From Candidatus Nitrosopumilus sp. (lineage in GTDB: Archaea > Thermoproteota > Nitrososphaeria > Nitrososphaerales > Nitrosopumilaceae), in contig JAOTTS010000015.1 in assembly GCA_029864335.1 (NCBI GenBank), forward strand, positions 1 through 53,585: a stretch of 53,585 nucleotides of DNA, in the 5' to 3' direction. The position numbers and the translations under genes were made by a program. Shown here piece by piece: positions 22,369 to 43,342 of the stretch (positions are counted from its first letter, which is position 1; each line of letters opens with the position of its first letter). Below the pieces are notes generated by a model, which did not search any database, had not been told where the DNA came from, and saw only the letters and a program-made list of their open reading frames with translations.

Positions 22369-22522
22369 ATTTTTCCTCATCCATTTGTGAATTAAATGAA
22401 AAATAAATCTATTCATAAAAAAATAGAATATTTGTCCAACAAAAAAAGAAAAAATGTACAAATTTTGAATCATCTGATTAAATGAAAATTCATAATGTCC
22501 ATTAGGATTATGAAAAAACTGA

Positions 22523-29199: not shown

Positions 29200-29693
29200 A
29201 TGTTTCATGCACCATTTCCATATCATAATTAGGGTTCCAAAACTGTATTAAGATGGGCTGCGTTTACAATTAGACAAGCAGCAAATTCAATCAAAATTCA
29301 AGTTCCAACTGGGATTACAATTAATGCCGTAACTGCAGGTATGCCGGATTCACCGTTCCAATACCTGATGCTAGTAAGCCTTTAGATCCATATCATATTT
29401 CCATAACAAAAGAGGTTCCAGATGCACTAAAGGATGTAAGTGAGATGTTAAAGACTACAGCAGACGTATCAGAAACGCTTGAATCAGACACTGTTCATCT
29501 GATAAGACAAACTCAAAATCAAATGACTCAACTAGGAGAAACTTTTGGCACCGCAGGCGGTCTGCTTTATACAACTGGAAACTATGTTTATTGCGCAGGG
29601 AAAATATTTCGTTTAGAGCCTCCTTCGCCAAATGATGAAATGCAATATCCACCTCCAGGATTAAAAAATTATTTACAAAATAATTTTTCATAA
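29200..29693 (+). pseudogene. Element protein interrupted by TAG and a frameshift
   Basis: ATG 29200 reads ten codons, TAG at 29230-29232, then continues in the same frame with GSKTVLRWAAFTIRQAANSI ... NAVTAGMP. At about 29345 one base is missing and the frame changes to GFTVPIPDASKPLDPYHISI, running to TAA 29691-29693. The last 82 residues are open (TTADVSETLESDTVHLIRQT ... GNYVYCAGKIFRLEPP). About 160 residues in the repaired form, mixed strand/helix, unknown family, structural-protein-like. The stop lies inside palindrome copy 3. Confidence 0.6.
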
Positions 29694-29710
29694 TCCTATA
29701 CAAGATTATG
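29689..29710. repeat. 22-bp palindromic repeat, copy 3
   Basis: CATAATCCTATACAAGATTATG, identical to copy 1, with arms extended by TTTT/AAAA. It sits between the stop codons of two convergent frames (29693 plus, 29716 minus), so could act as a bidirectional terminator. Confidence 0.7.
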
Positions 29711-29715
29711 AAAAT

Positions 29716-29871
29716 TTAGTCACTAGAATTTTCTTCTTTTTTTGTTTGATCTAGTTTTTCTTTTGGTTCGTCTTTGATATAATTCTCATAAATGTAAAAC
29801 CATGGATCCATATTGATACTATTCAAATGTTCTTCAATCTCATTTCCTTTTTTTGATGAATTAGTTATCAT
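29716..29871 (-). CDS. KKGxEIExHLxxxNMDPWFYIY family protein
   Basis: 51 residues: SKKGNEIEEHLNSINMDPWF then YIYENYIK and an acidic/basic tail. Paralogue of 22231, with about two thirds of the central 30 residues identical. The 22-bp palindrome follows the stop in both. Conserved aromatic cluster WFYIY suggests a folded or membrane-contacting core; function unknown. Confidence 0.6.
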   Translation of the reverse strand: MITNSSKKGNEIEEHLNSINMDPWFYIYENYIKDEPKEKLDQTKKEENSSD

Positions 29872-39699: not shown

Positions 39700-40551
39700 C
39701 TATTTTTCAATGGATTTTGCCATTTTAGTTAGTTTTTTGTAAGATTCATTGGTATCTGTATGCTTTGCAAGTCTCTCTTGGCATTCTTTGATGTATGTAA
39801 TTACCTCTTCAGTCTTTGATTCTTGAACAGCAGTAAGTAATCTGCCAATGTCTTTCCAAAGTTCTTCTGCAACTCTTCTAATTTCTGGATTAGCAATAAT
39901 TGTTTCAATTAGTTCTGGGGATTCTGTCATGATGCTTTCTGCCAATGTCTTTTGAACTCTAAATGTTGTACCTGACATTTTTTCTGTAAGATTCATTTTT
40001 TCATCTTTTGAAATAATGTTTGCAAAAACTAAATTTATCAAATGAGTTAACCCCAAAATTACTGCAATTTTTTTATCATGCTCTGCTGCATCAATAGTTA
40101 CAAAATTTGCCCCTTCAAACAATGATTTTACAACTGTTAGTTCTTTTTTAGCATCTTTAATTGGAACTGAAATTATATTTTGACCTTTGATAATTTTTGT
40201 TCCTGGACCAAACATTGGATGAATACAAATTGGATTAATCTTGTCTGGCATTTTTGATAATGATGAAACTACTTTTGATTTTTCTGATGATATTTCTACG
40301 AGATATGTTCCTCTTTTCATCTCTTTTGCAATGAGTCTAATAATTTCCGGTGTTCTTCTTGTGGGTGTACATAATACTACATAATCTGCCTTTAGAATTG
40401 AACCCACCAAAGAATCCGATTGTATAATATTTTTTCCTGTAATTTTATTTTCTGAATCATATCCTGTTACTTCAAAATCTTTCTCTGCAAAATATTTGGC
40501 AAACCATTGTCCCATTTGACCTCCAGCACCAACAACTGTTATCTTCTTCAT
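39700..40551 (-). CDS. tyrA: Prephenate dehydrogenase TyrA
   Basis: 283 residues. Rossmann start ITVVGAGGQMGQWFAKYF; LCTPTRRTPEIIRLI; HPMFGPGTKIIKGQNIISVP with the catalytic His of the TyrA family; a helical C-terminal dimerisation domain. It converts prephenate to 4-hydroxyphenylpyruvate with NAD(P). Overlaps the upstream chorismate mutase-aminotransferase by 4 nt, so flux from chorismate to tyrosine is genetically coupled. Confidence 0.9.
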   Translation of the reverse strand: MKKITVVGAGGQMGQWFAKYFAEKDFEVTGYDSENKITGKNIIQSDSLVGSILKADYVVLCTPTRRTPEIIRLIAKEMKRGTYLVEISSEKSKVVSSLSKMPDKINPICIHPMFGPGTKIIKGQNIISVPIKDAKKELTVVKSLFEGANFVTIDAAEHDKKIAVILGLTHLINLVFANIISKDEKMNLTEKMSGTTFRVQKTLAESIMTESPELIETIIANPEIRRVAEELWKDIGRLLTAVQESKTEEVITYIKECQERLAKHTDTNESYKKLTKMAKSIEK

Positions 40552-41918
40552 TGTTCCTCATTCATAATGTTACTCAGTATATTCATTCCCTCAATTAGTA
40601 TTTTCTCGTCTTGACATGCAGAAATTCTAATAAAATTCTTATAATTTCCAAATCCCTCTCCTGGGGCTATGGCAAGACCTTTACCAAGAGCACTATTTGC
40701 AAATTGAACCCCATCAAATCCATCTTGATTAATTCTAGCAAAAATATACATTGCACCATCTGGAACTACAAAATCTAGTCCCATCTCAGATGCTTTTTCA
40801 GACAACATATCTAGTCTGTTTTGGACCGTATTAGAATTGTTGGATGTGTCTGCCTCTAGGGCTTTCATAGCAATGTATTGGATGGGTTCAGACACATTTG
40901 TCAGGCATAATGCCTCTAATTTTGCCATTTTTTCAATAATTTCTGTATCTGCAATGGCATATCCAATTCTAAAGCCTGTCATTGCATGAGATTTTGAGAA
41001 TGATTGTGTAACAATACTTTTTTTATAATTATATGATAGAATACTTTTCCAGCTAGTTTTTGCATACTGGGAATAGATTTCATCACTAAGTAAATACAGA
41101 TCATTTTGCTTAGCCAATTCCACAATATCGTCTTGCAATTTTTCAGAAAGTATTTTGCCTGTTGGGTTATTCGGATAATTTAAAACAATCATCTTCGTGT
41201 TTGAGTTAATTGTATTTTTCATTTGCTCTAATGATGGCTCCCATTTTTCTTCTAGAGTTGTATTGATAGTCCTTACTTTGATTCCTGCATTTAGTGCACA
41301 ATCTTTGTATGCAGGCCATGCAGGTTCAATCACTATCATTTCATCACCTGGATTAAGAAGCGTTGTAATTGCAGTAAAGATTGAGAATCTGGCACCCGGA
41401 CTGACAATGATGTTATCTTCAGTTACATTTGCGTTAAATTTTTTAGAAACATATTTGGCAAGTGCATCTCTGAATATTGGCATACCTTTTGCTTGACCAT
41501 ATTTTAAAAATCCTTTATCAAAAACTTCTTCTAATGCATTTTTCACAATAACTGGTGGTAAAAAGTCTGGCTCTCCAACTTCCATATGTATTATTTTTTT
41601 ACCTTGTTGCTCCATCGATTTTGCTTTTAGGAAAATTGAGAGGTGTGTTTGTTTATTGGTTGATTGAACTTTCACTGATTCATTTAATAGGAAATTGAAA
41701 AATTTTGCTGCAATAATTTCATCCATTCCAATTTCATTGCATAATGAAATTACTTTTCCACGTAAATTATCTTCTCTGATTTCATCTGTCACTCCTTTCC
41801 CAATATTTTTTTTAACTTCGCCAATTTCTTTTGCAATATCTATTCTAGTTTTTAGTAACTTCATCATTTCAAGTGTAACTTCATCCATCCTGTTTCGAAG
41901 ATCATTAATATCTGCCAT
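40548..41918 (-). CDS. Chorismate mutase-aminotransferase fusion
   Basis: 456 residues from ATG 41918. Residues 1-85 are an AroQ-type chorismate mutase: DINDLRNRMDEVTLEMMKLL, RIDIAKEIGEVK, with the conserved Arg/Lys of the active site. Residues about 95-456 are a class I PLP aminotransferase: KYGQAKGMPIFRDALAKYV, LNYPNNPTGKIL, SFSKSHAMTGFRIGY (Schiff-base Lys), ISACQDEK. The fusion should make prephenate from chorismate and transaminate prephenate or the keto acids. The start at 41918, just after the AroC stop (41923), is chosen; an ATG at 41960 would overlap AroC. Confidence 0.88.
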   Translation of the reverse strand: MADINDLRNRMDEVTLEMMKLLKTRIDIAKEIGEVKKNIGKGVTDEIREDNLRGKVISLCNEIGMDEIIAAKFFNFLLNESVKVQSTNKQTHLSIFLKAKSMEQQGKKIIHMEVGEPDFLPPVIVKNALEEVFDKGFLKYGQAKGMPIFRDALAKYVSKKFNANVTEDNIIVSPGARFSIFTAITTLLNPGDEMIVIEPAWPAYKDCALNAGIKVRTINTTLEEKWEPSLEQMKNTINSNTKMIVLNYPNNPTGKILSEKLQDDIVELAKQNDLYLLSDEIYSQYAKTSWKSILSYNYKKSIVTQSFSKSHAMTGFRIGYAIADTEIIEKMAKLEALCLTNVSEPIQYIAMKALEADTSNNSNTVQNRLDMLSEKASEMGLDFVVPDGAMYIFARINQDGFDGVQFANSALGKGLAIAPGEGFGNYKNFIRISACQDEKILIEGMNILSNIMNEEQ

Positions 41919-41922
41919 TTTC

Positions 41923-43017
41923 TTACAAAACAGGCTTGATTGCCCCAGCAAGTAGTGCATGATCTGCTATGGTTAAGGCAACAAGTGAGTCCACTACCGG
42001 TGGAGCTCTAGGAACTACGCATGGGTCGTGTCTTCCCTTTACTTGAAGAATTGCTTCTTTTTTTGTCTTGATGTCCACAGTACTCTGTTTTTGTGCAATT
42101 GATGAAGCGGGTTTGAATGCAATTCTCATAGTTATTGGCATTCCATTTGAAATTCCTCCAAGAATTCCTCCTGAGTTATTTGTCTTTGTAATTATCTTTC
42201 CTTTTTTTATTGTATACAAGTCATTATTTTCAGAACCACTCATCTCTGAGCCTCTAAATCCTGAACCAAACTCAATCCCTTTAACTGATGGAATTGAAAA
42301 AATTGCTTTGCTCAAATCTGATTCTAATGAACTAAAGATTGGTTCTCCAAAACCCACCGGAACATTTGTTGTAACTGATTCAATAATCCCTCCAAGTGAA
42401 TTCCCTTTTTTACGTGCATTCAAAATACTTTCTCGCATCATTTTTGCAGTTTTATTTTCAGGACATCTAACTTCATTTTTGTAAATAGATGATGTCATTT
42501 TTTCATTGAATTCTTTTTCCATCTTTATTTTTCCGATTTGTGATGTAAATGAATTCGTTTCAATTCCTAGTGATACTTTGAGCAATTTTCTTGCAATTGC
42601 ACCACCCATAACATGTGTTGCAGTTAATCTTCCTGAAAATCTGCCTCCCCCTCTATAATCATTGAAGTGATTATATTTTATCATGGCAGGATAATCTGAA
42701 TGCCCAGGTCTTAGTTTTGTTTTCAAATTTTCATAATCTTTTGATTTTTGATCACTATTCCAAATCAACATAGTAATTGGCGCACCAGTTGTAAATCCTC
42801 TAAACACTCCTGAAATAATTTCTACAACATCTCCTTCCTTTCTTTGTGTTGATATCCTATTTTGACCTGGTTTTCTCAAGTCTAACATTTTCTGAATTTC
42901 TTTCTCATCAATTTCTAAACCTGCAGGGCAACCATCTAACACTGCACCAATAGCTTTTCCATGGCTTTCACCAAAACTTGTTAAAACTAAACGCTGACCA
43001 ATTGAACTTCCGGGCAA
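41923..43017 (-). CDS. aroC: Chorismate synthase AroC
   Basis: 364 residues. SFGESHGKAIGAVLDGCPAG at the start, RPGHSDYPAMIKYNHFNDYR, GGGRFSGRLTATHVMGGAIA, and RHDPCVVPRAPPVVDSLVAL near the C-terminus are the standard AroC signatures. It forms chorismate from EPSP using reduced FMN. Followed five nt later by the chorismate mutase fusion. The 325 bp upstream hold an inverted repeat and a GC-rich structured element. Confidence 0.96.
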   Translation of the reverse strand: MPGSSIGQRLVLTSFGESHGKAIGAVLDGCPAGLEIDEKEIQKMLDLRKPGQNRISTQRKEGDVVEIISGVFRGFTTGAPITMLIWNSDQKSKDYENLKTKLRPGHSDYPAMIKYNHFNDYRGGGRFSGRLTATHVMGGAIARKLLKVSLGIETNSFTSQIGKIKMEKEFNEKMTSSIYKNEVRCPENKTAKMMRESILNARKKGNSLGGIIESVTTNVPVGFGEPIFSSLESDLSKAIFSIPSVKGIEFGSGFRGSEMSGSENNDLYTIKKGKIITKTNNSGGILGGISNGMPITMRIAFKPASSIAQKQSTVDIKTKKEAILQVKGRHDPCVVPRAPPVVDSLVALTIADHALLAGAIKPVL

Positions 43018-43103
43018 TAATTTATCAAAGCTAAATGATGCTTATAATTCCTCATTCTGAAATTTCTACTCTAGGTTAGATTCTTTTTGATAATCTTTTA
43101 TGA

Positions 43104-43126: not shown

Positions 43127-43219
43127 CCATATTTTTATGAAATAATTATAATATATTCTTAAATATCATGATTATATACGTAATACATGCGAAAACGTGT
43201 AAATTTTAAACCATAATTT

Positions 43220-43303
43220 GCGCGGCCCTGCGAAAAAGACATGTTATCTGCGCAAAAGCGTTGTGGGTGAGGAGAATGCTTTTCACCCTATACAGGGTCG
43301 CGC
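43220..43303 (+). ncRNA. Candidate structured ncRNA inside the aro cluster
   Basis: An 84-nt GC-rich island closed by GCGCGGCCCTG (43220-43230) and CAGGGTCGCGC (43293-43303): 11 pairs with one G-U. Inside lie the hairpins CGC-AAAA-GCG (43251-43260) and GGGTGA/TCACCC (43265-43270/43283-43288). On the plus strand a TATA-like AAATTTTAAACC ends about 10 nt before it and T8/T6 runs follow at 43323 and 43339, so I favour plus-strand transcription; the minus strand is also possible. No tRNA, 5S, SRP or RNase P features. An H/ACA-like guide or a new RNA family is possible. Confidence 0.6.
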
Positions 43304-43342
43304 CTTTTACAACTTCTACATGATTTTTTTTAAAATCGTTTT

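Follow-up and report, generated by a model that had tools for sequence, protein, structure and literature searches.

A family of archaeal RNA genes with predicted leaderless nine-codon ORFs in Nitrosopumilaceae

The GC-rich island lying between aroA and aroC in an ammonia-oxidising archaeon, Candidatus Nitrosopumilus sp., is part of a plus-strand RNA gene and is one of four related small RNA genes in this genome. Each of them appears to begin, without any leader, with a tiny reading frame of about nine codons that stops at the foot of a conserved folded RNA, and the family matches no RNA family in Rfam. All coordinates, unless otherwise stated, refer to the window, that is, the whole stretch of 53,585 nucleotides that was analyzed (contig JAOTTS010000015.1 of assembly GCA_029864335.1).

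A conserved plus-strand RNA gene next to aroA

A sequence-only reading of the window had described an 84-nt island at 43220-43303, closed by an 11-bp stem with two internal hairpins, preceded by a TATA-like box, followed by T-runs and matching no familiar RNA family. This observation was confirmed, with two corrections: the best-supported TATA-like element, TTAAATA, lies further upstream (43159-43165), and the conserved unit starts at 43187 with a mini-ORF rather than at 43220. The island has a GC content of 50%, against 13-35% in its flanks. The plus strand folds to -39.9 kcal/mol (z -5.2, with none of 200 shuffles as good), whereas the minus strand folds less well, to -33.1 kcal/mol (z -4.4). 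The predicted structure comprises the closing stem P1 (11 bp, 43220-43230 paired with 43293-43303), the joining segment ACAUGUUAUC (43239-43248), which is single-stranded, near-invariant in Nitrosopumilus sequences and variable in Nitrosotalea, the hairpin P2 (43248-43253 paired with 43258-43263) and the hairpin P3 (43265-43274 paired with 43279-43288, 98.4% of cells paired). A U-rich 3' region at 43304-43331, ending in a run of eight T at 43324-43331 and T-rich also in relatives, is likely the terminator.

Besides the genome of the window, 39 genomes of the same genus carry the island at 80-99% identity, and in the 31 loci that were compared it always lies beside aroA and nearly always beside aroC, while in its own genome it is single copy at the DNA level. 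An alignment of 37 distinct sequences showed 95.7% of cells paired and eight pairs with changes on both sides, none of 500 shuffles was as good, and sliding the partners destroyed the signal. For P1 alone, 7 of 11 pairs showed changes on both sides, with 98.3% of cells paired, and compensatory changes were found in P2 and P3 as well. Although these shuffle controls ignore relatedness, the result is the opposite of the absence of compensatory changes among relatives that had been set beforehand as grounds for rejecting the structure. Within the stems, G-U pairs occurred in 147 cells and A-C mismatches in only 4 when the strand was read as plus; since a G-U on one strand is an A-C on the other, the RNA is the plus strand. 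A covariance model found the RNA in 108 of 250 genomes of the family, in five genera that apparently include Nitrosopumilus, Nitrosarchaeum and Nitrosotalea, and in Nitrosotalea the structure covaries still more strongly (12 pairs, 63 cells).

The interpretation offered by the sequence-only reading, either a regulatory leader of AroC on the minus strand or an independent ncRNA on the plus strand, was partly supported: the second option is supported by the G-U strand polarity, the compensatory changes and the RNA's own upstream TATA-like element, and the first is rejected. The strand is opposite to aroC, and aroC has its own TATA-like element (TTATAA, 43042-43047, minus strand), about 30 nt before its apparent TTG start at 43017, so aroC may itself be leaderless with a TTG start (43015-43050, minus strand). 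In Nitrosopumilus genomes without a model hit, the aroC-aroA gap was usually readable and simply lacked the RNA, while the TATA-like element of aroC (GCTTATAATTCCTCAT or similar) was still there. With regard to INDEPENDENCE, the conserved upstream block moves with the RNA to a different neighbourhood: in Nitrosotalea the RNA lies between a SIR2-type deacetylase gene and a membrane-protein gene, in either orientation, with the upstream block intact, which led us to reject our reading of this block as the aroC promoter. The aromatic neighbourhood is therefore probably incidental. In the same neighbourhood, the ORF upstream of tyrA (40548-41960, minus strand) reads as a chorismate-mutase-like N-terminus fused to an aminotransferase, its best NCBIfam profile being archaeal aspartate aminotransferase, which matches residues 97-466.

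Searches for a known identity of the RNA gave no support for any. Covariance scans against Rfam 15 returned no hit at the gathering score for the window or for the Nitrosotalea loci, and searches with lax E-values gave only matches far below cut-off. ARAGORN found no tRNA or tmRNA gene in the window. The three-way junction does not fit the single hairpin with pocket, K-turn and adjacent ACA of an H/ACA sRNA, and the ACA that follows P1 in the window is not kept in relatives; the C (RUGAUGA) and D (CUGA) boxes of a C/D box sRNA, near the ends and next to a short terminal stem, were not seen as conserved boxes in the alignments, read by eye. A riboswitch or attenuator leader would lie upstream of and on the same strand as a regulated gene, whereas this RNA is flanked 3' by the convergent aroA here and by a SIR2 or membrane-protein gene in either orientation in Nitrosotalea. 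A second ORF inside the RNA (ATG at 43241) was rejected because relatives shift its frame. No match was found in phage records or viral contigs, and exact-pattern hits in Ruminococcus and Omnitrophota are chance, as they had no model match, whereas a copy of Nitrosopumilus type scoring 113.8 bits on a contig labelled candidate division KSB1 (JAJDAE010000327.1) probably reflects a misbinned contig.

The predicted leaderless ORF and the P0 hairpin

The element TTAAATA lies 28 nt before an ATG at 43187, which opens an ORF of nine codons at 43187-43216 (plus strand) that reads ATG CGA AAA CGT GTA AAT TTT AAA CCA TAA and would encode MRKRVNFKP, with a TAA stop that lies 3 nt before P1. Among 106 homologues, 103 keep this ORF, with ATG or GTG as start and TAA (53), TGA (47) or TAG (3) as stop. 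In three loci (L029, L124 and L125; L numbers denote the loci of our collection) the ATG is lost but the next codon is ATG, and L270 and L328 show the same with TTG/GTG. In Nitrosotalea one extra base sits after the stop and not in the ORF. The ORF frame had no internal stop in 103 sequences, compared with stops in 52 and 73 sequences in the other two frames; however, the column-shuffled test for avoidance of in-frame stops was only marginal once near-identical sequences were removed (p about 0.05), so that the case rests mainly on start and stop interchange and on frame preservation.

Part of the ORF also folds. In the hairpin P0 (43199-43221), GUAAAUU at 43199-43205 pairs with AAUUUGC at 43215-43221, overlapping the end of the ORF, spanning the stop and including the first 2 nt of P1. 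Over 49 sequences, 98% of cells were paired and three of seven pairs had changes on both sides, as in GUAAAUU/AAUUUGC, GUAAUUC/GAAUUGC and GCAAAAU/AUUUUGC. The first 36-38 nt fold better than dinucleotide shuffles in both types of the RNA described below (mean z -2.6 and -2.0), and many ORF columns are also explained by P0 pairing.

Two types and their distribution in Nitrosopumilaceae

A covariance model of ORF plus RNA built from Nitrosotalea (R2) gave weak full-length hits elsewhere, which proved to be a second, divergent type with the same TATA spacing, nine-codon ORF and P1, but with an extra helix (GCAGAAC/GUUCUGC) and a conserved hairpin GAGAGGNAAUCUCUC; its structured domain comprises P1, P1b, P2 and P3, whereas in the first type P1 encloses P2 and P3. 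A model of this second type (R3), built without any type I sequence, finds the RNA of the window at an E-value of 1.8e-6 with ORF aligned to ORF. In the genome of the window it finds three further members, each with a predicted nine-codon leaderless ORF and a GAGAGGNAAUCUCUC hairpin, on genome contigs numbered here C46 (19656-19788, plus strand; MSIDKISID), C40 (1488-1616, minus strand; MSLDIQYIK) and C50 (52662-52788, minus strand; MSLDIRHVE), corresponding to loci L264, L265 and L266. A weak model hit at 29682-29745 of the window (minus strand), over an AT-rich hairpin (TTTTCATAATC/GATTATGAAAA) preceded by an in-frame stop, looks like an ordinary terminator and was not counted.

Among 250 genomes of the order, R3 found 80 Nitrosopumilaceae genomes, usually with 1-4 copies; the only other hit was a weak one (genome G114, E 0.004), and two listed good Nitrosopumilaceae genomes had none. 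In a phylum-wide draw of 300 genomes, 44 gave hits, all of them in this family, and the 256 others did not. A cultured species, apparently N. maritimus SCM1 (contig of 1,645,259 bases), appears to carry three members, with ORF starts at 22398, 488160 and 690171, all on the plus strand; this name, like Nitrosopelagicus and Nitrosotenuis for other numbered genomes, is tentative. The members that we examined are mostly flanked 3' by a convergent gene. The type I RNA is missing from the aroC-aroA gap in many, mostly small (1.1-1.5 Mb), Nitrosopumilus genomes (L187-L205) while type II members remain, and this loss may follow genome reduction. Decaying copies exist but are rare: L041 (genome G064, contig C4) has lost both the ORF and much of P1, and L039 (genome G050, contig C189) has lost the stop codon.

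The ORF rule holds across the family. Reading from the TATA position, 169 of 182 members of both types have exactly nine sense codons, 10 have eight, 1 has ten and 2 are broken, leaving aside 8 more that could not be called by the rule; the stops are TAA in 95, TGA in 58 and TAG in 29. In nearly all members the TATA-like element is kept 28 or 29 nt before the start codon, also in Nitrosotalea, where the gene context differs; by sequence this fits the 25-30 nt between TATA box and start codon expected of a leaderless short ORF. The spacing just outside the ORF varies by 1-2 nt (TATA-ATG 28 or 29; stop-GCG 3, 4 or 5), while changes inside it are whole codons. Two divergent members whose ORF the model had misplaced (L319 and L320) read MLVQCRMMD followed by TGA from the predicted start, a small out-of-sample success, and at sites outside the family with the same TATA-start spacing, none of 42 gave nine codons. 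In contrast, the peptide itself is poorly conserved between and within members: in the MSLV?KSGD subgroup the fifth codon changes freely in its first two bases while its third base, in the P0 loop, stays, which is the reverse of normal coding constraint.

A possible ribosome dock and its alternatives

The most likely explanation, to which we assign a probability of about 0.45 as a whole chain, is that a small stand-alone RNA gene (about 43187-43310) is transcribed from at or next to the ATG, so that the first 30 nt of the transcript would be a leaderless ORF of nine codons plus stop, followed within 3-5 nt by the structured domain. Thirty nucleotides is about one ribosome footprint, and a leaderless 5' AUG is bound by whole ribosomes; we therefore propose that the ORF docks a single ribosome directly on the 5' end of the RNA. 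In this view the ribosome would have to melt P0, and its leading edge would meet P1 by about codon 7-9, as it reaches the stop, so that occupancy would either hold the ribosome or remodel the RNA, whose 3' domain would then act in trans as a reporter or effector of translation state. Because the peptide is not conserved, the act of translation rather than its product is probably what counts. Strand, structure, independence of the gene and family membership are demonstrated here by comparison, and we hold the gene and its structure to be all but certain; the use of the start and stop codons by ribosomes is a strong inference from comparison alone, which we consider likely although no transcript, ribosome footprint or peptide has been seen; and ribosome docking or switching, together with any action in trans, is a hypothesis that rests on geometry alone.

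The strongest alternative, which we nevertheless regard as unlikely, is a purely noncoding structured RNA in which the 5' AUG and the URR after P0 are structural or promoter features, such as a start-site preference or a 5' hairpin that protects the end. In its favour, P0 alone covaries and is more stable than shuffles in both types, the peptides are not conserved, and ribosome-bound sRNAs without coding potential are reported in Haloferax (PMC12482152). Against it stand the interchange of start and stop codons, the whole-codon length changes inside the ORF compared with 1-2-nt changes just outside it, the in-frame re-use of the second codon as start, and the occurrence of nine codons in unlike members with differently placed P0; moreover, UGG, which would suit an RNA turn as well, never occurs at the stop position. 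Far less probable is a micro-gene whose product is the nine-residue peptide and whose 3' UTR is the structured RNA, since, although the frame is conserved, the peptide is poorly conserved whereas the RNA domain is highly conserved with covariation. A cis-regulatory leader or attenuator of aroC or of another downstream gene, suggested by the position between aroA and aroC and by the mini-ORFs of leader-peptide attenuators, is already contradicted by the strand, by the aroC TATA-like element kept where the RNA is absent, and by the convergent aroA downstream, with other members also followed mostly by convergent genes. A mobile or repetitive element, or a DNA operator palindrome, is equally remote: there are several members per genome and P0 is near-palindromic, but type I is single copy and syntenic, G-U pairs, which break DNA symmetry, are common in the stems, and phages and viral contigs gave no match.

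The RNA shares single features with several known systems. Leader-peptide attenuators, including the leaderless short-ORF attenuators of mycobacteria, have a leaderless or short ORF whose translation could choose between RNA structures, comparable to the 2-nt overlap of P0 and P1 in type I, but here the gene stands alone, with no co-directional downstream gene to regulate and no amino-acid-specific codon run. Dual-function sRNAs (SgrS/SgrT, RNAIII/hld, SR1) are likewise independent small RNA genes carrying an ORF, whereas the present RNA has an ORF of nine codons at the very 5' end of its predicted transcript, of almost fixed length, a peptide that is not conserved, a rigid structured domain with covariation and several unlike members per genome. 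tmRNA is a structured RNA with a reading frame of about ten codons, but the present RNA has its own start codon at its predicted 5' end and no tRNA-like domain was seen. The ribosome-associated sRNAs of Haloferax volcanii (PMC12482152) are archaeal small RNAs bound by ribosomes, many without coding potential, which makes the idea reasonable without being evidence for it; no homology or shared architecture is known, and Haloferax is outside the group in which this family was found. The ncRNA Tan1 of Thalassoarchaea (PMC5069720) is also an orphan ncRNA of abundant marine archaea, but it is 229 nt long, belongs to Euryarchaeota and was described there from six homologues. Our search for small RNAs of Nitrosopumilus and Thaumarchaeota found nothing describing this family, although it covered open-access literature only, so that a prior description, for example among the putative small RNAs reportedly described from the ocean in 2009, cannot be excluded; a 2010 survey of 104 motifs does not mention Nitrosopumilus. 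We regard the family as new because neither the RNA nor its layout falls under a known kind, although a reader who counts any orphan structured RNA as a known kind would see it as a variation on one.

Ammonia-oxidising archaea are among the most abundant cells in oceans and soils, and in the open-access literature that we searched no stand-alone regulatory RNA family was found described for them. The family reported here is present in nearly every good Nitrosopumilaceae genome searched, in 1-4 unlike copies, and its layout, a stand-alone RNA gene with a predicted leaderless ORF of almost fixed nine-codon length and a structured domain within a few nucleotides of the stop codon, has no match that we know of. 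More tentatively, it may represent a new class of archaeal regulatory RNA in which an ORF one ribosome long is a built-in dock and the ribosome on it gates or carries a structured trans-acting RNA, for example as a sensor of translation state or a ribosome-parking device. If the ORF is a ribosome dock, it would be a new way to couple translation to a regulatory RNA.
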